A stretch of 64,000 nt of DNA, from contig NZ_FUZU01000003.1 of NCBI RefSeq assembly GCF_900167975.1, positions 434,001 through 498,000 on the forward strand, given 5' to 3'. The notes below the pieces were generated by a model. It did not search any database. It worked only from the letters and a program-made list of their open reading frames with translations, and was not told where the DNA came from. How positions within the stretch are numbered: position 1 is the first letter of the stretch; every line of letters starts with the position of its first letter. Source of the stretch: Ohtaekwangia koreensis (lineage in GTDB: Bacteria; Bacteroidota; Bacteroidia; Cytophagales; Cyclobacteriaceae). A program made the translations under genes and the position numbers. Below, piece after piece: positions 24,873 to 55,264 of the stretch.

Positions 24873-26552
24873 TTACGCTGTAGTAGTCGCTGCCTCCTGT
24901 TCTTTTAAAGCACGCCTTAGTATTTTACCAACATTGGTCTTTGGTAATTCAGTTCGAAACTCAATATGTTTTGGTACTTTATAGTTGGTAAAGTTCTCAT
25001 GAAAGAATGCTTTTAGTTCTTCTTCATTCAAACTCTGGTCCTTCTTTACTATAAATACTTTGATTACTTCACCAGATTTAGCATCCGGTACTCCGATCGC
25101 TGCTACTTCCAGAACCTTGGGATGTCCTGCAATAACATTTTCAATTTCATTGGGGAACACATTAAAGCCGGATACTTTGATCATGTCCTTTTTACGATCA
25201 ACGATCTTAAAATATCCATCGTCATCCATCCTTCCTATATCTCCGGTACGAAACCATTCCCCCGGAAAGAATACACCTTCGTTATCCTTCTCCCAGTAAC
25301 CCGACATAACCTGTGGACCACGCGCACAGATTTCTCCGGTGTCACCTTGCGATAACTGCTTTCCGTTATCATCAAATATAGCTACTTCGGTGCTTGGCAT
25401 AGGTATACCGATGCTTCCCAGGCGATGCCCTCCATCCAGCGGATTACAGCAAAGCACAGGTGATGTTTCACTCAATCCATATCCTTCTATCAAAGGCTTT
25501 CCGGTAACTTCCTGCCAGCGCTTTGCTACAACATCCTGAACTGCCATGCCTCCTCCTATAGCACCTTTCAGCGCATTGAAATCAAGATCCTTAAATCCGG
25601 GTGTATTGAGTAGACCATTGAACAATGTATTAACGCCTGTAATGATCGTAAACCTATATTTAGCAAGCTCCTTCACAAATCCTTTCATATCGCGCGGATT
25701 GGTGATCATAACACTTTTAACACCCGTGCTAAACATCAGGAAACCATTTACCGTCAGCGCGAAAATATGATACATCGGTATAGCCGTGATGATCAGATCG
25801 TCTCCTCCCTGCGACATATAGGGCTTGAACCATTCGGTGATCATGGAGTTGTGTGCTATAATATTTCCATGCGAAAGCTTTGCTCCCTTTGATATACCTG
25901 TAGTGCCACCCGTATATTGCAATACTGCTATATCTTTTACACTAAGATCAGGCTTTGTGAATTTAAGCGATGCTCCTTTTTTTACTGCGTCTTTAAATGG
26001 AATAACATTTGGAAGATTGTATTCGGGAACCATCTTCTTAATATACTTTACAACGAAGTTTACGAGCGTTCCCTTCAATCCACCCAACATATCGCCAAGC
26101 TGTGTAACGATTATATGTTTGATTGATGTATTGGCGAGTATCTTTTCAAGATGGTTAGCAAAATTTGCAACGATAACAATCGCGCTTACCCGGGCATCTT
26201 TAAACTGATGCTCCATTTCTCTGGGTGTATAGAGTGGATTTGTATTCACTACTATTAACCCGGCACGCAGTGCTCCAAAAAAAGCAATCGGAAACTGAAG
26301 CAGGTTGGGCATCTGGATAGCGATGCGATCTCCTTTTTTCAATCCAAGACTCTGAAGATAAGCGGCAAAGTTTCGGGAGAGTTCATCAACCTCTTTGAAG
26401 GTCATCTCTTTTCCCATGTTTACGAAAGCAACTCTGTTGCTATACTTCGCACAACTTTTTTCAAAGAGATCAACTAACGAGGTGTAATCATACAAGTTAA
26501 TTTCGTGAGGGGTGCTTTTAGGATAATGCTTGAACCAAGGGAAATCCTTCAT
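24873..26552 (-). CDS. fadD: Long-chain fatty acid-CoA ligase
   Basis: Cytosolic or membrane-associated adenylate-forming enzyme that activates fatty acids with CoA for beta-oxidation or lipid synthesis. The AMP-binding signature YTGGTTGISKGA and the GYGLSETSP, EWFRTGDIGRMDDDGYFKIVDRKKDMIKVSGFNV stretches are intact. I set the start at 26552 (MKDFPWFKHYPKSTPHEIN) because from there it aligns closely with E. coli FadD; the frame continues upstream to 26615. A palindrome (26594-26609) then lies 42 bases upstream of the start. The gene is alone on this strand, with tRNA-like RNAs upstream. Confidence 0.93.
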   Translation of the reverse strand: MKDFPWFKHYPKSTPHEINLYDYTSLVDLFEKSCAKYSNRVAFVNMGKEMTFKEVDELSRNFAAYLQSLGLKKGDRIAIQMPNLLQFPIAFFGALRAGLIVVNTNPLYTPREMEHQFKDARVSAIVIVANFANHLEKILANTSIKHIIVTQLGDMLGGLKGTLVNFVVKYIKKMVPEYNLPNVIPFKDAVKKGASLKFTKPDLSVKDIAVLQYTGGTTGISKGAKLSHGNIIAHNSMITEWFKPYMSQGGDDLIITAIPMYHIFALTVNGFLMFSTGVKSVMITNPRDMKGFVKELAKYRFTIITGVNTLFNGLLNTPGFKDLDFNALKGAIGGGMAVQDVVAKRWQEVTGKPLIEGYGLSETSPVLCCNPLDGGHRLGSIGIPMPSTEVAIFDDNGKQLSQGDTGEICARGPQVMSGYWEKDNEGVFFPGEWFRTGDIGRMDDDGYFKIVDRKKDMIKVSGFNVFPNEIENVIAGHPKVLEVAAIGVPDAKSGEVIKVFIVKKDQSLNEEELKAFFHENFTNYKVPKHIEFRTELPKTNVGKILRRALKEQEAATTTA

Positions 26553-26593
26553 AGTATGTTCGCTCTTAAATTTCTTCTGTAAAGATTCCCAAA

Positions 26594-26609
26594 GCAAACG
26601 ATTGTTTGC
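26594..26609. promoter_or_regulatory. Palindromic operator candidate upstream of fadD
   Basis: GCAAAC-GATT-GTTTGC, six-base arms around a four-base centre. The half-site GCAAACGATTG recurs at 7331-7341 in the pckA promoter and at 14095-14105, suggesting a shared regulator. Position relative to the fadD transcription start is unknown. Confidence 0.45.
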
Positions 26610-26700
26610 CAGCAAATCAAATCAGATTACAAGATTTATATAGTGGTAATGAGAACCAAATCTTTAGAATAAAAAACAGCAGCTTGTCACAGAACTCCAT

Positions 26701-26735
26701 AAAAAAATAAACCCGCCTCTCCTGGAGAAGCGGGT
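26701..26735 (-). terminator. Terminator of the tandem tRNA-like transcript
   Basis: Minus-strand ACCCGC (26735-26730) pairs with GCGGGT (26716-26711), with an inner TCTC/GAGA helix, and is followed by T-rich sequence (26710-26701). It sits 35 bases beyond the 3' end of the downstream tRNA-like copy. Confidence 0.85.
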
Positions 26736-26769
26736 AGCTCTGAATAACTCATTAACCTAAACTGAGCTG

Positions 26770-26919
26770 CTGTAGGAGAAGGATTCGAACCTCCACGAAG
26801 CGGTTAGACGTTGACCTGATCTTGTTTCATGAAGAAGCGAGATCAGGGTGCATTGCTTTATTCCGTTTACCTTCACCCCCGAGACCGGAGGGCATGTCTG
26901 CCAGTTTCAACACCCTACA
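26770..26919 (-). ncRNA. tRNA-like structured RNA, copy A (downstream)
   Basis: About 150 bases that fold as a class II tRNA with an enlarged variable domain. Acceptor stem TGTAGGG with TCCTACA, discriminator G; D arm with TGGCAGAC; T arm GGAGG-TTCGAAT-CCTTC. The anticodon stem is CCCTC/GGGGG around loop CGGTCTC, which lacks the universal U33 (G instead). The variable region is about 80 bases, with outer helix GAAG/CTTC, inner helix CGG/CCG and a terminal hairpin starting CCTGATCT. No CCA is encoded. A canonical decoding tRNA is unlikely. It shares 5' and 3' ends with copy B. Confidence 0.72.
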
Positions 26920-26974
26920 ATATGTTGTGTGATGCGTGTGTGTGTTGCCCCCGATAAGTTATCGGAGGACTTTG

Positions 26975-27092
26975 CTGTAGAGGGAGGGCTCGAACCTCCA
27001 CGGAGCAGTTAGGTCGCCAAAGGCTGGACTTTATCCTGTAATCTCCACCCTCGAGACCGGAGGGCATGTCTGCCAAATTCCAACACCCTACA
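26975..27092 (-). ncRNA. tRNA-like structured RNA, copy B (upstream)
   Basis: About 118 bases, nearly identical to copy A in the acceptor, D and anticodon parts but with a shorter variable domain. Acceptor TGTAGGG pairs with CTCTACA; T arm is a perfect GGAGG-TTCGAGC-CCTCC; anticodon stem CCCTC/GAGGG keeps the same odd loop CGGTCTC. In the variable domain the outer helix is GGAG/CTCC and the inner helix CAG/CTG, so both helices differ from copy A by compensating base pairs. The terminal hairpin is GCC-TTT-GGC. A CA-rich leader precedes each copy. A short hairpin (CCGATAA/TTATCGG, 26951-26965) lies between the two. Confidence 0.72.
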
Positions 27093-27156: not shown

Positions 27157-27188
27157 CAAAGTAACACCTAAACTAGTACCTGAATCAA
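27157..27188 (-). promoter_or_regulatory. Candidate promoter for the tRNA-like RNAs
   Basis: Minus strand TTG (27188-27186), 21 bases, then TTACTTTG (27164-27157), one base off TAnnTTTG. It lies 65 bases upstream of copy B and back-to-back with the lrp promoter. Confidence 0.45.
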
Positions 27189-27263: not shown

Positions 27264-27728
27264 ATGGCCGAAAATTATAAAGTTGACAATGTGGATCTGA
27301 AGATTCTTGAGATTCTGATGCAGGATGCAAAGAAACCTTATACAGAAGTTGCCAAAAAAGCTTTCGTTTCGGGTGGTACAGTGCACGTACGCATGAACAA
27401 AATGGAAGAAGCCGGGATTGTTGAAAAGACTACACTTAAAGTTAACTATGCAAAACTCGGGTACGACATCACCGCTTTTATCGGGATATTCTTACAGAAG
27501 AGTGCCTTGTATGATCAGGTGATGGCGAAGCTTAAGGCTATTCCCGAAATCACCAGCATCCATTATACAACCGGTAACTATAGTATGTTTACCAAAATAC
27601 ATTGCAAAGACACGAATCACCTGAAGCAAGTGCTTCATGATAAAATACAACAGGTTGAAGGCATTGAACGTACGGAGACGATGATCTCTCTCGAAGAAAG
27701 TCTGGACCGCAGCCTTAACCTGACCTGA
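27264..27728 (+). CDS. Lrp/AsnC-family transcription regulator
   Basis: A 154-residue DNA-binding protein. The N-terminal winged helix-turn-helix is about residues 6-60 (VDLKILEILMQDAKKPYTEVAKKAFVSGG), and the C-terminal RAM domain, which binds amino acids and drives oligomerisation, is about 70-145. It probably senses an amino acid or related small molecule. It is divergent from the tRNA-like RNAs and shares their control region, so it may regulate them or itself. It has its own terminator, so it is not part of the SUF operon. Confidence 0.93.
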   Translation: MAENYKVDNVDLKILEILMQDAKKPYTEVAKKAFVSGGTVHVRMNKMEEAGIVEKTTLKVNYAKLGYDITAFIGIFLQKSALYDQVMAKLKAIPEITSIHYTTGNYSMFTKIHCKDTNHLKQVLHDKIQQVEGIERTETMISLEESLDRSLNLT

Positions 27729-27978: not shown

Positions 27979-29424
27979 ATGAGTAAAGATAATCAGGTAT
28001 TAGAAGCGTTAACTTCCAAGGAATACGAGCACGGCTGGTCCACCAACATCGAGACCGATTCTGCTCCCAAAGGGTTGAACGAAGATATTATACGATTCAT
28101 TTCTTCCAAGAAGAATGAGCCGGAATGGTTACTTGAATGGCGTCTGGATGCATACCGCCAGTGGACTAAAATGAAAGAGCCTACCTGGCCAAACGTTACC
28201 TACCCTCCTATCAATTACCAGGATGTTATCTATTACTCGGCACCCAAGCAGAAGATAACACCGAAGAATCTGGAAGATGTAGACCCCGAATTGATAAAGA
28301 CTTTCGAAAAACTGGGAATCTCTCTAACAGAACAGAAGAGACTTACCGGTGTGGCCGTTGATGCTGTGATAGACAGTGTTTCGGTTGCCACTACATTTAA
28401 GGAGACGCTGGGAGAACTTGGAATTATATTCTGTTCCTTCAGTGAGGCTGTGCTGAAGCACCCTGATCTCGTGAAGAAGTATATGGGATCGGTTGTCCCT
28501 GTCAACGATAATTATTTTGCAGCACTGAACTCCGCAGTGTTTACAGACGGATCGTTCTGTTACATTCCGAAAGGCGTTCGTTGCCCGATGGAATTATCAA
28601 CTTATTTTAGAATCAATGCTGCCAACACCGGACAGTTCGAGCGTACGCTGATTATTGCTGATGAGGGATCTTATGTAAGTTACCTCGAAGGATGTACAGC
28701 ACCGATGCGTGATGAAAATCAATTGCATGCGGCTGTGGTTGAGATCTACGCGATGAAAGATGCACAGGTAAAATACTCTACCGTGCAAAACTGGTATCCC
28801 GGTGATAAAGAAGGCAAAGGTGGTATATATAACTTCGTTACGAAACGCGGTCTTTGCTTTGGCGATGGCTCGAAGATTTCATGGACGCAAGTTGAAACGG
28901 GATCAGCCATTACCTGGAAATATCCTTCGTGTATCCTGAAAGGCGATAACTCGATGGGTGAATTTTATTCGGTAGCCGTAACCAACAACTATCAGCAAGC
29001 TGATACCGGAACGAAGATGATTCACATTGGTAAGAATACCAAGTCACGTATTGTATCCAAAGGTATATCTGCTGGTCATTCGCAGAATAGCTACCGCGGA
29101 CAAGTACATATCATGAAACGCGCAGAAGGTGCACGCAACTTCTCTCAATGTGATTCTTTACTAATGGGCGATAAATGCGGTGCGCATACCTTCCCCTATA
29201 TCGATGTTGAGAATAACTCTGCGAAGATCGAGCACGAAGCAACTACATCCAAGATCGGTGAAGACCAGATCTTCTATTGCTTACAACGTGGTATAGATGA
29301 AGAATCAGCAGTAGCATTGATCGTAAATGGCTATGCGAAAGAAGTACTCAGCCAGTTACCGATGGAGTTTGCTGTTGAAGCACAGAAACTTCTCGCATTA
29401 ACCCTGGAAGGAAGCGTAGGATAA
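27979..29424 (+). CDS. sufB: Fe-S cluster assembly scaffold protein SufB
   Basis: Cytosolic 481-residue subunit of the SufBCD scaffold on which iron-sulfur clusters are built. Family stretches are [53 protein letters not shown] and the C-terminal [24 protein letters not shown]. First gene of a seven-gene SUF operon. A possible -7 element TAGCTTTG lies at 27938-27945, but without a good -33 partner. No sufA or sufR gene is present beside it. Confidence 0.97.
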
Positions 29425-29501
29425 TAATGATTAAAGCCCCGAGTCTATACTATATAGACAAGCTTTACTCCCAAGTATAAATATAAAAGCAACGAATAGA
29501 G

Positions 29502-30257
29502 ATGTTAACAATAAAGAATCTACAAGCGAAAATCGGTGATAAACAAATCCTGAACGGAATCAACCTGGATATTAAGCCTGGTGAAGTGCATGCTATTATG
29601 GGACCGAACGGTTCGGGTAAGAGTACACTGGCATCTGTACTTGCAGGTCGTGAAGAGTTTGAAGTTACCGGTGGTGAAGTTGAATTTCTTGGAAAAGATC
29701 TTCTTGAGTTAGCACCTGAAGAACGTGCACGTGAAGGTGTATTCCTCGCGTTTCAATACCCGGTGGAAATTCCAGGGGTGAGCACTATAAATTTCATGAA
29801 GACTGCCGTGAATCAGATTCGTGTTCATCGCGGACAACAAGCTTTGGATGCAGTATCTTTTCTTGGATTGATGCGTGAAAAAATGAAACTCGTAGAGATT
29901 GATCAATCATTATTGAATCGTTCCCTCAACGAAGGTTTCTCCGGTGGTGAAAAGAAACGCAATGAAATTTTTCAAATGGCGATGCTCGAACCAAAGCTTG
30001 CTATACTTGACGAAACCGATTCAGGTCTTGATATCGATGCATTGAAGATCGTTTCAAACGGTGTGAACAAACTTCGTAATAAATCAAATGCTGTAATCGT
30101 GGTAACACACTATCAACGATTACTGGATTATATAGTGCCTGATTTTGTACACGTACTTTATAAAGGAAAGATTGTAAAATCCGGTACGAAAGAACTGGCC
30201 CTCGAGCTTGAAGCAAAAGGCTATGATTGGATTAAAGATGAAGTTTCTGTAGCCTAA
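29502..30257 (+). CDS. sufC: Fe-S assembly ATPase SufC
   Basis: An ABC-type ATPase of 251 residues that powers the SufBCD scaffold. Walker A GPNGSGKST (about 35-43), signature FSGGEKKR and Walker B LAILDETDSGLD are all intact. It follows sufB after 77 bases and precedes sufD by 10 bases. Unlike transporter ABC proteins it works in the cytosol with SufB and SufD rather than with membrane subunits. Confidence 0.97.
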   Translation: MLTIKNLQAKIGDKQILNGINLDIKPGEVHAIMGPNGSGKSTLASVLAGREEFEVTGGEVEFLGKDLLELAPEERAREGVFLAFQYPVEIPGVSTINFMKTAVNQIRVHRGQQALDAVSFLGLMREKMKLVEIDQSLLNRSLNEGFSGGEKKRNEIFQMAMLEPKLAILDETDSGLDIDALKIVSNGVNKLRNKSNAVIVVTHYQRLLDYIVPDFVHVLYKGKIVKSGTKELALELEAKGYDWIKDEVSVA

Positions 30258-30267
30258 CGCAAGTACG

Positions 30268-31575
30268 ATGAGTGTTACTGTATCTAAAAAAAATATAACC
30301 CAGGAAATTGCATCCGGAATTGAAAAAAATCTGGCAGCAAACATTTCTGATAGTGCACTACGGAAAGAAGCGTTAGAAGCTTTTCGTGCCCTTGGTCTTC
30401 CTGCCAATAAATCGGAAGAGTATAAGTTCACACCGATTACACGTGCGTTGGAGAAGAACTTTGAATTCTCTGGACCGAACGCAATTGTAAAAGAGTTTGA
30501 TATCACCCCTATAGCAATTCCGGGACTCGATGCAGATGTGTTGGTATTTTTGAATGGCGTGTTTTCAAAAACTGCGTCTTCGATCACATCAAAAAATCTG
30601 ACGGTTCTTACTATACAGGAAGCTATCGCTTCTAAAAATGAAGTAGCGCTGAAGCATCTTGGCAAGTATGCTGATTTTAAAACGGATGCTCTTGTTGCCT
30701 GGAACACCGCTGCATTTCAAGACGGTGTATTTGTGCATGTAGCGGATAATACAATCATTGAAAAACCGGTGGTGCTATATCATATTCATGATGCAAGCGC
30801 TGGCCAGGTTATATCCCTCAACAGAAACCTGATTATTGTTGGCAAGAGCAGTTCAGTTACTGTGCTTGAAAAATTTGACTCAACGGGTTCGGCTAATTTC
30901 TCGAATACCGTAACGGAAGCCATTGTTGCTGAGAATGCTGGTTTAGAATTATACTCTATCCAGAATGATAATGGACCACGTTATCAATTCGGACTCACCC
31001 AAATTCATCAGTCAAATTTCAGTCGCGTAAATACCTATACTTTTACGCTCAGTGGAAAACTGGTTCGTAATAACCTGCACTTTGTATTGAATGGCGAAGG
31101 AATTGAATCGCATATGTATGGACTATATTTATTGGCGAAAGATACACTGGCCGATAACCATACCGTTGTGGATCATAAGAAGCCTAATTCCTTTAGCAAT
31201 GAACTATATAAAGGGATCATGGGCGACAGCTCCAAAGGGGTTTTTAACGGAAAGATATATGTTCGTCCGGATGCCCAGAAGACAAATGCTTTTCAAGCAA
31301 ACCGAAATATACTCTTAACGGATAAAGCAACCGTTAACACAAAGCCACAGCTTGAAATCTGGGCCGATGACGTTAAGTGTTCTCACGGATGCACCACTGG
31401 ACAATTGGATGAAGAAGCACTCTTCTATCTCCAGACCCGTGGCATTGGCAAAGACACTGCGCTGGCCATGATGCTCTATGCATTTGCCGGTGAAGTATTA
31501 GAGTACGTAAAACATCCGGTGATTAAAGAATATCTAGATAACGTAATCAGCGAAAGGTTACATAAAAACTTTTAA
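30268..31575 (+). CDS. sufD: Fe-S cluster assembly protein SufD
   Basis: Partner subunit of SufB in the scaffold, 435 residues. The C-terminal core resembles SufB, with KTNAFQANRNILLTDKATVNTKPQLEIWADDVKCSHGCTTGQLDEEALFYLQTRGI, including the conserved Cys and His near the SufB interface. The N-terminal quarter is more variable, as usual for SufD. It is followed by sufS after two bases, indicating tight coupling. Confidence 0.96.
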   Translation: MSVTVSKKNITQEIASGIEKNLAANISDSALRKEALEAFRALGLPANKSEEYKFTPITRALEKNFEFSGPNAIVKEFDITPIAIPGLDADVLVFLNGVFSKTASSITSKNLTVLTIQEAIASKNEVALKHLGKYADFKTDALVAWNTAAFQDGVFVHVADNTIIEKPVVLYHIHDASAGQVISLNRNLIIVGKSSSVTVLEKFDSTGSANFSNTVTEAIVAENAGLELYSIQNDNGPRYQFGLTQIHQSNFSRVNTYTFTLSGKLVRNNLHFVLNGEGIESHMYGLYLLAKDTLADNHTVVDHKKPNSFSNELYKGIMGDSSKGVFNGKIYVRPDAQKTNAFQANRNILLTDKATVNTKPQLEIWADDVKCSHGCTTGQLDEEALFYLQTRGIGKDTALAMMLYAFAGEVLEYVKHPVIKEYLDNVISERLHKNF

Positions 31576-31577
31576 GT

Positions 31578-32825
31578 ATGGTTTCCTCCTCTCCGGCTAT
31601 AACCCGTAAACTTGATATTGAGGCGATCCGAAAAGAATTTCCGATCCTGCATCAGCAAGTAAACGGACGTGATCTGGTATATTTTGATAATGCTGCCACT
31701 TCGCAGAAACCTTTAAGCGTAATCAACGCACTGATCGATTACTATAAAGGTTACAATGCCAACATTCATCGCGGCATCCATACATTAGCGGAGAAGGCAA
31801 CGAAAGCATATGAAGAAACACGCCATGCTGCGAAACGTTTCATTAATGCACAATCCGAACAGGAAATCATCTTTACACGTGGCGTTACTGAAAGTATAAA
31901 TCTCGTATCGTCTTCCTATGGAAGAGCCTTTATTAAAGAAGGTGATGAGATTATAATCTCTGGCCTGGAGCACCATTCAAATATAGTTCCATGGCAGTTC
32001 GTATGCGAAGAGAAGAAAGCTACGCTACGGACAATTCCGGTGTCTCCGGAGGGCGAACTGGATCTTGATGCGTATCGAAAATTACTTTCATCAAAAACAA
32101 AACTGGTATCTATCAACCATGCTTCCAATAGCCTGGGTACTATAAATCCCGTAAAGGAAATTATAAAACTGGCGCACGAAGTTGGAGCGGTTGTACTGGT
32201 TGATGGAGCGCAAGCCGGAGCACACATTGAAATTGATGTGCAGGATCTGGATTGTGATTTCTATTGCCTCTCATCGCACAAGATGTATGGCCCTACCGGA
32301 ACAGGTATACTATATGGTAAGAAAGAACTTCTGGAAAAGATGCCTCCTTACCATGGTGGTGGTGAAATGATCAAAGAAGTAACCTTCGAGAAAACTACGT
32401 ATAACGATCTCCCTTATAAATTCGAAGCGGGTACTCCAAACATTGCTGATGTAGTAGCCTATAAAGCTGCATTTGATTTCATTAACGAACTTGGTAAGGA
32501 AAATATAGCGGCCCACGAACATGAGTTGCTGGTATATGCAACCGAACGCGTTTCGAAATTAAAATCAGTGAAGTTGATTGGCACAGCCAAACACAAGGTT
32601 GGTGTCTTATCGTTCGCGGTGGAGGGTATACACCATTTTGATATCGGGCAGATGTTGGATGCACGCGGAGTCGCGGTTCGTACCGGGCATCATTGCACGC
32701 AACCTCTAATGACTTGTTTCGGAATTGAAGGAACTGTGCGGGCTTCTTTTGCAGTTTATAATACGAAACAAGAGATTGATCAGCTTGTGGAAGGACTGGA
32801 GCGGATCATTAACTTCATGAAGTAA
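31578..32825 (+). CDS. sufS: Cysteine desulfurase SufS
   Basis: PLP enzyme, 415 residues, that removes sulfur from cysteine for cluster assembly. The PLP lysine lies in SSHKMYGPTG, and the active-site cysteine in RTGHHCTQPLM near the C-terminus. YFDNAATSQKP and ANIHRGIHTLAE are typical group II desulfurase stretches. It stands between sufD (2 bases) and sufE (3 bases). Confidence 0.97.
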   Translation: MVSSSPAITRKLDIEAIRKEFPILHQQVNGRDLVYFDNAATSQKPLSVINALIDYYKGYNANIHRGIHTLAEKATKAYEETRHAAKRFINAQSEQEIIFTRGVTESINLVSSSYGRAFIKEGDEIIISGLEHHSNIVPWQFVCEEKKATLRTIPVSPEGELDLDAYRKLLSSKTKLVSINHASNSLGTINPVKEIIKLAHEVGAVVLVDGAQAGAHIEIDVQDLDCDFYCLSSHKMYGPTGTGILYGKKELLEKMPPYHGGGEMIKEVTFEKTTYNDLPYKFEAGTPNIADVVAYKAAFDFINELGKENIAAHEHELLVYATERVSKLKSVKLIGTAKHKVGVLSFAVEGIHHFDIGQMLDARGVAVRTGHHCTQPLMTCFGIEGTVRASFAVYNTKQEIDQLVEGLERIINFMK

Positions 32826-32828
32826 CTT

Positions 32829-33263
32829 ATGACTGTCAATCAGATTCAAGACGAAATCATTAGTGAGTTTTCCCTGCTGGATGGAGATATGGAAATGACC
32901 GTATTCTACATCATGGAGTTAGGACAAAAGTTACCGGTGATGCCGGAATCTGACAAAACAGAAGAAAATGTAGTAAAGGGCTGCCAATCTAAAGTGTGGT
33001 TAACTGGTATAGTAAAGGATGAGAAGATTTTCTTTACGGCCGATAGCAACACCGCTATAACAAAAGGTTTGGTGAGCTTGCTGGTAAGAATCTTCAATGG
33101 ACAAACTCCGGATACGATTCTGAATACAGACCTATATTTCATGCACAAGATCGGGATGGAACGATTCATTGGGACACAACGTTCCAATGGTTTTGCCGCC
33201 ATGATCAAACAAATGAAACTGTATGCGCTTGCTTTTAAAACTAAAATGGAAGTAAAGTCATGA
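32829..33263 (+). CDS. sufE: Sulfur acceptor protein SufE
   Basis: A 144-residue protein that takes persulfide sulfur from SufS to the SufBCD scaffold. The acceptor cysteine is in VKGCQSKVWL (about residue 52). Spacing to sufS is 3 bases, and its end overlaps the next gene's start by four bases (ATGA), so the two are translated together. Confidence 0.95.
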   Translation: MTVNQIQDEIISEFSLLDGDMEMTVFYIMELGQKLPVMPESDKTEENVVKGCQSKVWLTGIVKDEKIFFTADSNTAITKGLVSLLVRIFNGQTPDTILNTDLYFMHKIGMERFIGTQRSNGFAAMIKQMKLYALAFKTKMEVKS

Positions 33264-33607
33264 GTGAGCAAGTTGAAAACGTAAATCTGTCATCTACTTC
33301 TGTTGCCGACCTTCGGGACAAAGTGGTACAAGCCATCAAAACGGTTTACGATCCGGAAATTCCGGTAGATGTATATGAGTTGGGCCTCATTTATGAAATC
33401 AATGTTTATCCGGTTAACAACGTGTACGTCCAAATGACGCTTACGTCACCCTCCTGCCCTTCTGCAGAGGTAATTCCGGGTGAAGTGGAACAAAAAATTA
33501 AAGCCATTGAAGGTATCAATGATGTGAAAGTTGAAATTACCTTTGATCCTCCCTATACGCAGGACATGATGAGTGAAGCTGCGAAACTTGAACTAGGATT
33601 TCTATAA
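33260..33607 (+). CDS. sufT: SufT-like MIP18/DUF59 Fe-S maturation protein
   Basis: A 115-residue protein of the MIP18 (DUF59) family. The core KTVYDPEIPVDVYELGLIY and MTLTSPSCPSAEVIPGEV match SufT-type maturation factors; the conserved Asp-Pro-Glu and the single Cys in SPSCPS are in place. Such proteins help deliver clusters to target enzymes such as lipoate synthase. It overlaps sufE by four bases. Confidence 0.93.
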   Translation: MSEQVENVNLSSTSVADLRDKVVQAIKTVYDPEIPVDVYELGLIYEINVYPVNNVYVQMTLTSPSCPSAEVIPGEVEQKIKAIEGINDVKVEITFDPPYTQDMMSEAAKLELGFL

Positions 33608-55003: not shown

Positions 55004-55151
55004 ACGTCTTTCAAATTTGGCGCAATTAACCACCATCATTTTTAACAACCAAAAGTCCTTCTGATTTAGGATGAGAAGAAGAATGACTTAAAATGTGCCA
55101 ACCAGCTTCTTGCATATGATTTCATTATGCCTTTCATTTGCACACATAAAC

Positions 55152-55228
55152 GCATCGGGGTGCTGTGAAAAACAGCTGAGATTATACCCGGGGAACCTGA
55201 TTCTGGTTAGTACCAGCGAAGGGAATGC
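55152..55228 (+). promoter_or_regulatory. TPP riboswitch (THI box) aptamer
   Basis: All aptamer landmarks are present: P1 GCAT (55152-55155) with ATGC (55225-55228), CGGGGTGC, CTGAGA (55176-55181), GAACCTGAT (55193-55201) and GGTTAGTACCAGCGAAGGGA (55205-55224). It senses thiamine pyrophosphate and should switch off the methyltransferase operon when TPP is plentiful. Confidence 0.96.
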
Positions 55229-55264
55229 AAGCTTCGATTTTACTGCTAAGGGTATAAGATATTG

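Follow-up and report, generated by a model that had tools for sequence, protein, structure and literature searches.

A family of tRNA-shaped RNAs in Bacteroidota and their large phages with aspartate identity positions and a proposed role in asparagine synthesis

Two tRNA-like RNAs and their family in cells and phages

The 64-kb stretch of Ohtaekwangia koreensis DNA that was analysed (64,000 nucleotides, hereafter the window) carries two adjacent tRNA-like RNAs on the minus strand, copy A and copy B, located between a gene for an AMP-binding enzyme of the acyl-CoA ligase type and a divergent gene for an AsnC-type regulator (Table 1). Both belong to a large RNA family that is widespread in Bacteroidota and their big phages and has no Rfam match. 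Judged from their sequence and gene company, the members of this family are probably carriers that have the shape of a tRNA but do not decode, and on which asparagine is made in a tRNA-dependent way.

Table 1. Features of the locus (positions in the window; R1 is the covariance model of the family)
Feature	Position	Strand	Remarks
tRNA-like RNA copy A	26973..27092	minus	120 nt, to CA after G73; R1 128.1 bits
tRNA-like RNA copy B	26768..26919	minus	152 nt; identity positions as in copy A; R1 126.8 bits
Copy A anticodon loop CGGTCTC (32-38)	27053..27059	minus	G33, then aspartate identity G34 U35 C36, C38
Copy B anticodon loop CGGTCTC	26881..26887	minus	
Copy A variable domain, 48 nt	27000..27047	minus	outer helix GGAG/CTCC, helix CAG/CTG, internal loop GATAAA/CTAA
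Copy B variable domain, 81 nt	26795..26875	minus	additional terminal hairpin
Intrinsic-terminator-like hairpin	26711..26735, T tail to 26701	minus	3′ of copy B, ahead of ligase gene
Likely promoter of the RNA, TTGA ... TTACTTTG	27157..27188	minus	alignment of 22 intergenic regions
Divergent AsnC-type regulator, recurrent partner	27264..27728	plus	44% identity, 149 residues, E. coli AsnC
AMP-binding (acyl-CoA ligase-type) enzyme	24873..26615	minus	downstream of RNAs; syntenic in close relatives

The original prediction had described two neighbouring minus-strand elements with the arms of a class II tRNA, and these were all present. The acceptor stem contained 7 bp in both copies, with TGTAGGG paired with CTCTACA in copy A and with TCCTACA in copy B; in copy A this gave the pairs U1-A72 and G2-C71, followed by the discriminator G73. 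Both copies ended in CTACAGCA, in which CA follows G73, and shared the D loop TGGCAGAC, which is of the tRNA-Leu kind, and the T loop TTCGA. The anticodon loop CGGTCTC with a G at position 33 was confirmed in both. The distance from the anticodon stem to the T stem was 48 nt in copy A and 81 nt in copy B. Variable arms of about 55 and 80 bases had been predicted. The outer helix was GGAG/CTCC in copy A versus GAAG/CTTC in copy B, and the inner helix CAG/CTG versus CGG/CCG.

The locus was not recognised by standard tools. ARAGORN found no tRNA in the window, and none of the 36 predictions from a tRNA search of the organism's own genome fell at 26768..27092. A search of the window at the Rfam gathering thresholds returned only a thiamine pyrophosphate (TPP) riboswitch, with neither RNA copy above the threshold of any Rfam 15 family, and a permissive Rfam search of the locus gave just five sub-threshold matches. 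When the own genome was searched at the DNA level with copy A, the two window copies and one weak 20-base match were the only hits. A normal cloverleaf under a different fold was rejected because the anticodon stem covaries and because of the negative ARAGORN result for the window; among the parsed copies this stem occurred as CCCTC/GRGGG, CCTCC/GGTGG, CCGTC/GACGG and CCCGC/GCGGG. Pairing of the anticodon loop with a GACC in the variable domain was also rejected, by eye only, because copies with A34 or C34 showed no matching change. The minimum-energy folds of eight single copies had z-scores from -1.09 to +0.89, and the best fold was often other than the cloverleaf.

To retrieve related loci, the downstream ligase was used as bait. 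Of the 80 loci obtained, 56 contained together 73 copies of the RNA, all directly upstream of the ligase on the same strand except in L102, where the RNA was positioned after the ligase gene on the other strand. An alignment of 70 distinct rows that included the window copies (A2) was then analysed; the copy L067:2701-2857, with a palindrome inserted at its 5′ end, was excluded. Pairing held in 99.6% of cells for the outer helix (47-50/197-200) and in 95.2% for the inner helix (79-81/194-196). Each helix had changed on both of its strands, so the compensating changes first seen between the two window copies were borne out across the alignment. A third, innermost helix of the variable arm was weaker, with 59.0% of cells paired. 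Over the whole structure 94.7% of cells were paired as compared to 87.6% in shuffles, and none of 500 shuffles equalled the observed value. Two-sided changes numbered 177 against 64.6 in shuffles, 14 pairs against 8.4 changed on both sides, and slid controls were paired in 53-61%. Both window RNAs are thus real, and the selected RNA structure that had been proposed for them is present in the tRNA arms as well as in the variable arm.

The covariance model R1 was built from the family alignment and used for the genome searches. Because R1 also scores ordinary tRNA-Leu genes (50 bits in L211 and L269, for example), only matches at E 1e-14 or better were counted for genomes; with filters this strict, R1 may miss divergent copies. 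In the order, 271 of 291 genomes passed E 1e-3 and about 222, by hand count, passed 1e-14. The RNA was detected in 27 of 149 genomes in the class sample at the strict cut-off, and in the phylum sample strict copies were spread over several families of the class. Outside it they occurred in a single family, f66 of another class, where each of two genomes had three tandem copies. The longest tandem arrays contained six copies within about 1.3 kb (L189). Instead of the two-copy family that had been envisaged, 224 distinct copies were parsed. Rows shorter than 100 nt were excluded from this parse of 238 rows, and 14 rows failed: two with an inserted palindrome, one cut by a contig end and 11 that were other tRNA-like rows from phages. 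The motif used to find the A2 copies covers the anticodon loop and allowed up to 6 or 7 substitutions, and the A3 copies came from a model trained on A2 copies, so some ascertainment remains in these sets.

The variable region ranged from 39 to 123 nt with a median of 76 among the 161 parsed cellular copies. A bacterial copy of only 78 nt (L313:837-914, loop CTATCTC) lacked the giant variable arm and still retained U35, C36, C38, G73, U1-A72 and G2-C71, and compact phage copies of 88-97 nt had short variable arms. The giant variable domain, which had been supposed to be the essence of these RNAs, is therefore not essential. Several genomes of the same genus scored like the one with the 78-nt copy (about 1e-17), and their copies may be equally short. 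Some RNA copies (L067:2701-2857, L141:1674-1987, L160:1501-1639, L057 and L064) were interrupted at differing sites, namely the D arm, the anticodon arm and the variable arm, by an inserted palindrome that resembles TCCCGATAGCTATCGGGA and may be mobile.

Viral contigs were scanned twice. The first pattern, which returned at least 120 stretches, fixes the anticodon loop, and this set was for that reason not used for loop conservation. Among the 80 loci listed, R1 matched copies of full or nearly full length in 79, one of the 79 being cut near its 3′ end; in the remaining listed locus the copy was cut by the contig end. The second pattern left the anticodon loop free and gave 91 stretches, of which all 80 listed matched R1; in L263 and L349 the contig end truncated the match. 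Since such collections can include host fragments, not every viral contig need be a phage. Of 35 loci from the first scan that were examined for tRNAs, 17 contained five or more tRNA or transfer-messenger RNA (tmRNA) genes, 7 carried a tmRNA and 7 had none, and in a 636,363-base phage record one copy of the RNA was situated amid tRNA genes. Searches by blastn with the window region against phages and with one L036 copy against plasmids gave no matches; with a different copy, one huge phage was matched.

The presence of a copy on many viral contigs could also be expected of a structural small RNA or an integration site, for which the tRNA shape would serve only stability or recombination, and tRNA genes are described as common integration sites in the relevant passages of PMC3399842. 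We consider this very improbable. It would leave the invariant identity positions described below unexplained, and it does not sit well with viral copies that are complete in nearly all listed loci and that in about half of the scanned loci stand beside five or more tRNA or tmRNA genes. In a carrier of asparagine synthesis, those same positions would have a function.

Further RNAs with a tRNA shell were observed in phage contigs (L211, L218, L222, L225, L288, L309, L353, L358, L359, L363). Their ends AGTCAGGTGGCG...ACAGGTTCGAATCCTGTCCTGACTAC were conserved with roughly 40-115 nt between them, the inserts were mostly unrelated, an anticodon arm was not evident, and up to seven occurred per locus. 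They look like a common tRNA shell with different inserts.

Invariant positions in a tRNA-Leu-like body

U35, C36, C38, G73, U1-A72 and G2-C71 were found in every one of the 161 distinct parsed cellular copies. Bases 34-36 were GUC in 153, AUC in seven and CUC in one. In contrast, position 33 was T in 106, G in 43, C in 6 and A in 6, and position 37 was U in 156, C in 3 and G in 2, that is, a pyrimidine in 159. In A2, T33 occurred in 38 of the 70 rows, 37 of these with the loop CTGTCTC. The absence of U33, which the original prediction had taken as a hallmark, is thus a local variant with G33. The viral copies from the loop-free pattern agreed. Seven of 63 rows were excluded (five tRNA or other tRNA-like rows and two contig-end cuts), and the 56 distinct copies that remained, with 14 anticodon stem forms, had G34 in 55, U35 in 56, C36 in 56, C38 in 54, G73 in 56 and A72 in 56; U1 and G2 are fixed by the pattern and are not independent there. 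Position 37 was a pyrimidine in 54 and U in 53, and U33 occurred in 46. Two copies from the first viral scan had A1-U72.

According to PMC9976931, the aspartate identity set consists of G73, G34, U35, C36 and C38, and the pairs G1-C72 and G2-C71 show strict conservation across bacterial tRNA-Asp. Amidation of Asp-tRNA-Asn is conferred by U1-A72, and G1-C72 together with U20a prevents it in tRNA-Asp (PMC9976931). Among the 30 of 36 tRNA loci of the window genome that were examined, tRNA-Asp had G1-C72 and the loop CTGTCAC, tRNA-Gln had U1-A72 and tRNA-Leu had A73; tRNA-Asn was predicted twice, once with U1-A72 and once with G1-C72. When the invariant positions are set against the published sets and these tRNAs, the RNA combines a tRNA-Leu-like body with the aspartate charging set and the amidation pair. 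What is constant in the family is this identity set, and not an absent U33 or a giant variable arm.

Like tRNA-Leu of Bacteroidota, the RNA has a class II body and a D arm that by eye is near that of the tRNA-Leu of the window genome, and both are matched by R1. It differs from tRNA-Leu by G73 instead of A73 in all 161 copies, by U1-A72, by an anticodon loop of the Asp type without a Leu anticodon and by its variable region of 39-123 nt. With tRNA-Asp(GUC) it shares G73, G34, U35, C36, C38 and G2-C71, in contrast to its class II body, U1-A72 in place of G1-C72, U37 and variable position 33.

The likeness to tRNA-Asp raises the question of a genuine but odd decoding tRNA for Asp codons. ARAGORN labelled the compact phage copies tRNA-Asp in 15 of 23 scanned loci, and most copies have U33. 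Even so, we give this reading next to no credence, because U37 is nearly universal in cellular and viral copies alike, 55 of the 161 cellular copies have a base other than U at position 33 (G, A or C), and the window genome already has a normal tRNA-Asp. The variable position 33 and the pyrimidine at 37 fit the non-decoding job that had been suggested for the RNAs, and fit a carrier that is charged without being used by the ribosome.

The AsnC-type partner and the metabolic company

The regulator beside the window RNAs belongs to the Lrp/AsnC family. Its alignment to E. coli AsnC was gap-free, whereas BLASTP gave no alignment to E. coli Lrp. The best NCBIfam model was AsnC at 172.5 bits, below the 227-bit cut-off, and for the window regulator and four distant Bacteroidota homologues AsnC was always the best model, at 161.6-181.7 bits, with the next model at 71.7-85.9; all five were below the cut-off. 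The best solved structure by sequence was 2cg4, which is named regulatory protein AsnC. In E. coli, too, asnC has a divergent neighbour, asnA, which AsnC controls in response to asparagine. A homologue of the regulator was found in 94 of 121 cellular loci bearing the element (some of these loci overlap), in two classes, always upstream and divergent, at a distance of 115-507 bp, and with homologues down to about 50% identity. A stretch containing TTGA...TTTG recurred between regulator and RNA in many related loci. This is likely the promoter of the RNA; a scan with a sigma-70 pattern found no promoter at 27157..27188, and we take the stretch TTGA...TTACTTTG to be the Bacteroidota -33/-7 promoter form.

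The tight linkage to the regulator, together with the identity set, would also fit an aminoacylation sensor or decoy, on which AspRS (and GatCAB) act but for a regulatory purpose, such as informing the neighbouring AsnC-type protein of the Asp/Asn state or titrating AspRS or GatCAB. The conserved internal loop in the variable domain, which a carrier does not obviously need, also speaks for such a role. We nevertheless regard it as unlikely. The AsnC-type gene was not detected in the stretch examined for 27 of the 121 cellular loci, or in any of 171 viral loci (stretches of at most about 15 kb), and the identity positions are kept in copies that have no variable domain. Moreover, a sensor or decoy does not by itself explain the co-occurrence with GatB in GlnRS-positive genomes (see below), which a carrier of asparagine synthesis would.

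In 17 distant neighbourhoods of 8-16 kb, whose other genes were not annotated individually, the AsnC type was the most recurrent gene cluster (7 of 17), and the next clusters occurred in at most four loci. This recurrence counts against a third possibility, that the RNA donates Asn (or Asp) outside the ribosome, to a transferase that modifies lipid, cell wall or protein. Staphylococci have a dedicated cell-wall tRNA-Gly, which would be a parallel, and non-decoding features beside an intact charging set, as well as the dispersed copies in some genomes (G286, G253), would suit a donor. We judge a donor role to be quite improbable and continue to favour the carrier in asparagine synthesis. In G286 and G253 (L172-L174, L176, L177), closely similar copies were scattered across the genome, away from the AsnC-type gene.

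The ligase was found in only one of the 17 neighbourhoods. The RNA is unlikely to be a cis-leader of the ligase gene because of this, because a terminator-like hairpin lies between them (one was found as compared to 0.5 expected in shuffles) and because the L102 RNA follows the gene on the other strand.

The enzymes of amide aminoacyl-tRNA formation and the asparagine synthetases were then tabulated, with the presence of GatCAB judged from GatB alone. Among the 149 class genomes, GatB was found in 110, AsnRS in 144, E. coli-type AsnB in 21, GlnRS in 52 and AsnA in 8. All 27 RNA-bearing class genomes had GatB, with AsnRS in 26, GlnRS in 12, AsnB in none and AsnA in one, which was the carrier of the 78-nt copy. 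GatCAB should not be needed for translation where GlnRS and AsnRS both exist. Of the 52 GlnRS-positive genomes, all 12 that had the RNA were GatB-positive, versus 4 of the 40 without it (Fisher p 9e-9, ignoring phylogeny), and the contrast was repeated inside families f23, f24 and f70. E. coli-type AsnB occurred in 0 of 27 genomes with the RNA versus 21 of 122 without (p 0.014). In the phylum sample, the 20 GatB-negative genomes listed, all of the class, also had no detected RNA, and G331 had GatB without the RNA; outside the class, most genomes were GatB-positive without the RNA. The survey in PMC4206432 gives 18 genera that have AsnRS, GlnRS and GatCAB and no Asn synthetase, and Bacteroidetes is named among their clades.

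A proposed carrier for asparagine synthesis

The identity set, the AsnC-type neighbour and the co-occurrence with GatB together point to a role in asparagine synthesis. The original prediction, which is partly supported, had proposed no role beyond a non-decoding one. On the whole we lean towards a dedicated non-decoding RNA cofactor on which AspRS and GatCAB make asparagine, which an AsnC-type sensor controls and whose gene large phages carry. The RNA would be matured by RNase P and CCA addition as for a tRNA. AspRS would then attach aspartate, as is suggested by the retention of G73, G34, U35, C36 and C38 on a tRNA-Leu-like body, and GatCAB would convert the bound Asp to Asn, as is suggested by U1-A72 in place of the G1-C72 of tRNA-Asp and by the co-occurrence. 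Hydrolysis would finally free asparagine for use as the free amino acid, among others by AsnRS. A decoding RNA with the anticodon GUC that bears Asn would misplace Asn at Asp codons, and hence a carrier should lose its decoding features; position 33 being free, position 37 nearly always U and the variable arm large in most copies, the Asn-charged RNA would presumably be kept off Asp codons. The divergent AsnC-type protein would tune expression of the RNA by asparagine, by analogy with its E. coli counterpart at asnA, and phages may, more speculatively, carry the gene to secure their asparagine supply.

The proposed route resembles the tRNA-dependent synthesis of asparagine on tRNA-Asn, which in the account of PMC4206432 is carried out by a non-discriminating AspRS (ND-AspRS) and GatCAB in Deinococcus, Thermus and Bdellovibrio. 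In both, AspRS attaches Asp, GatCAB amidates it and U1-A72 licenses the amidation, and the tRNA-Asn route is likewise found beside AsnRS and GlnRS in genomes without an Asn synthetase, some Bacteroidetes included (PMC4206432). That route uses the decoding tRNA-Asn (GUU) as its carrier and requires a non-discriminating AspRS. In contrast, the carrier proposed here would be an RNA of its own, in which the anticodon is that of Asp, the decoding positions are altered and the variable arm is usually large, and a discriminating AspRS would suffice. The tRNA-Other pseudo-tRNA of Bacillus cereus is also a tRNA-like RNA outside translation, for which the passages of PMC3399842 concerned with it name neither an Asp or amidation identity set nor an AsnC partner. 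With tmRNA the RNA shares a tRNA-like domain and occurrence in phages, where the two are sometimes adjoining. A tmRNA has a coding tag and no anticodon arm, unlike the present RNA, and the ARAGORN tmRNA calls in 7 of 35 phage loci were never at the tRNA-like element. The component parts are therefore of known kinds, and their combination as a dedicated non-decoding carrier is apparently new; we know of no other such carrier for amino-acid synthesis. The family also appears to be new to description: no account of such an RNA was found in the open-licence literature searched, and words beginning with bacteroid, phage or asparagin are absent from the available text of a review of non-canonical tRNAs (PMC7609411).

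Several observations weigh against the carrier. The failure to find an AsnC-type gene in 27 of 121 cellular and all 171 viral loci counts here as it did against a sensor. G34 is replaced by A or C in 8 of 161 cellular copies, C38 is replaced by A in 2 of 56 viral copies, and in the window genome itself one of the two tRNA-Asn predictions has no U1-A72. G1-C72 of bacterial tRNA-Asp is described as crucial for identity in the corresponding section of PMC9976931, and the RNA has U1-A72. No copy was detected in 83 of the 110 GatB-positive class genomes, although 79 of the 83 are without GlnRS and should need GatCAB for Gln-tRNA anyway. The four GlnRS-positive genomes that were counted for GatB and had no detected RNA all belong to family f80, in which the GatB-like match is divergent. 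The window genome itself is without GlnRS, and its GatCAB thus has another job too. Lastly, mutual exclusion of the RNA and AsnA was tested in the order and in the class sample and was not found. In the order, AsnA was present in 23 of 291 genomes, 17 of which had the RNA at E 1e-14 or better, and the share with the RNA was similar among genomes without AsnA (about 205 of 268, hand count); replacing AsnA can therefore not be all that the RNA does. In the class sample no association was seen (1 of 27 versus 7 of 122, p 1).

If the proposal is correct, a tRNA body has been converted to a non-decoding cofactor for amino-acid synthesis, and charging and decoding are separated in one natural RNA, with each step accessible in vitro with known enzymes. 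It would give a concrete reason for the retention of GatCAB in some Bacteroidota with both AsnRS and GlnRS, explain how such Bacteroidota produce asparagine without AsnB, and add a metabolic function that phages bear as an RNA gene.

Other features were noted in passing. In the four f80 genomes (G585, G624, G655, G684), the GatB-like match scored 353-363 bits and lay in open frames of about 1110 residues, which are perhaps fusions. Within 3 kb (L028, G000:C6:1169622-1172694), the window genome contained a cluster of unusual additional tRNAs predicted for Asn, His, Lys and Pro, which is perhaps derived from a phage. The TPP riboswitch (Rfam RF00059, 70.9 bits) occupied window positions 55146-55241 on the plus strand. 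From the open reading frames, suf iron-sulphur (Fe-S) cluster genes were recognised by eye at 27979-33607, downstream of the AsnC-type gene, and gene clusters of the SufB/SufC type recurred in 2 of the 17 longer neighbourhoods.
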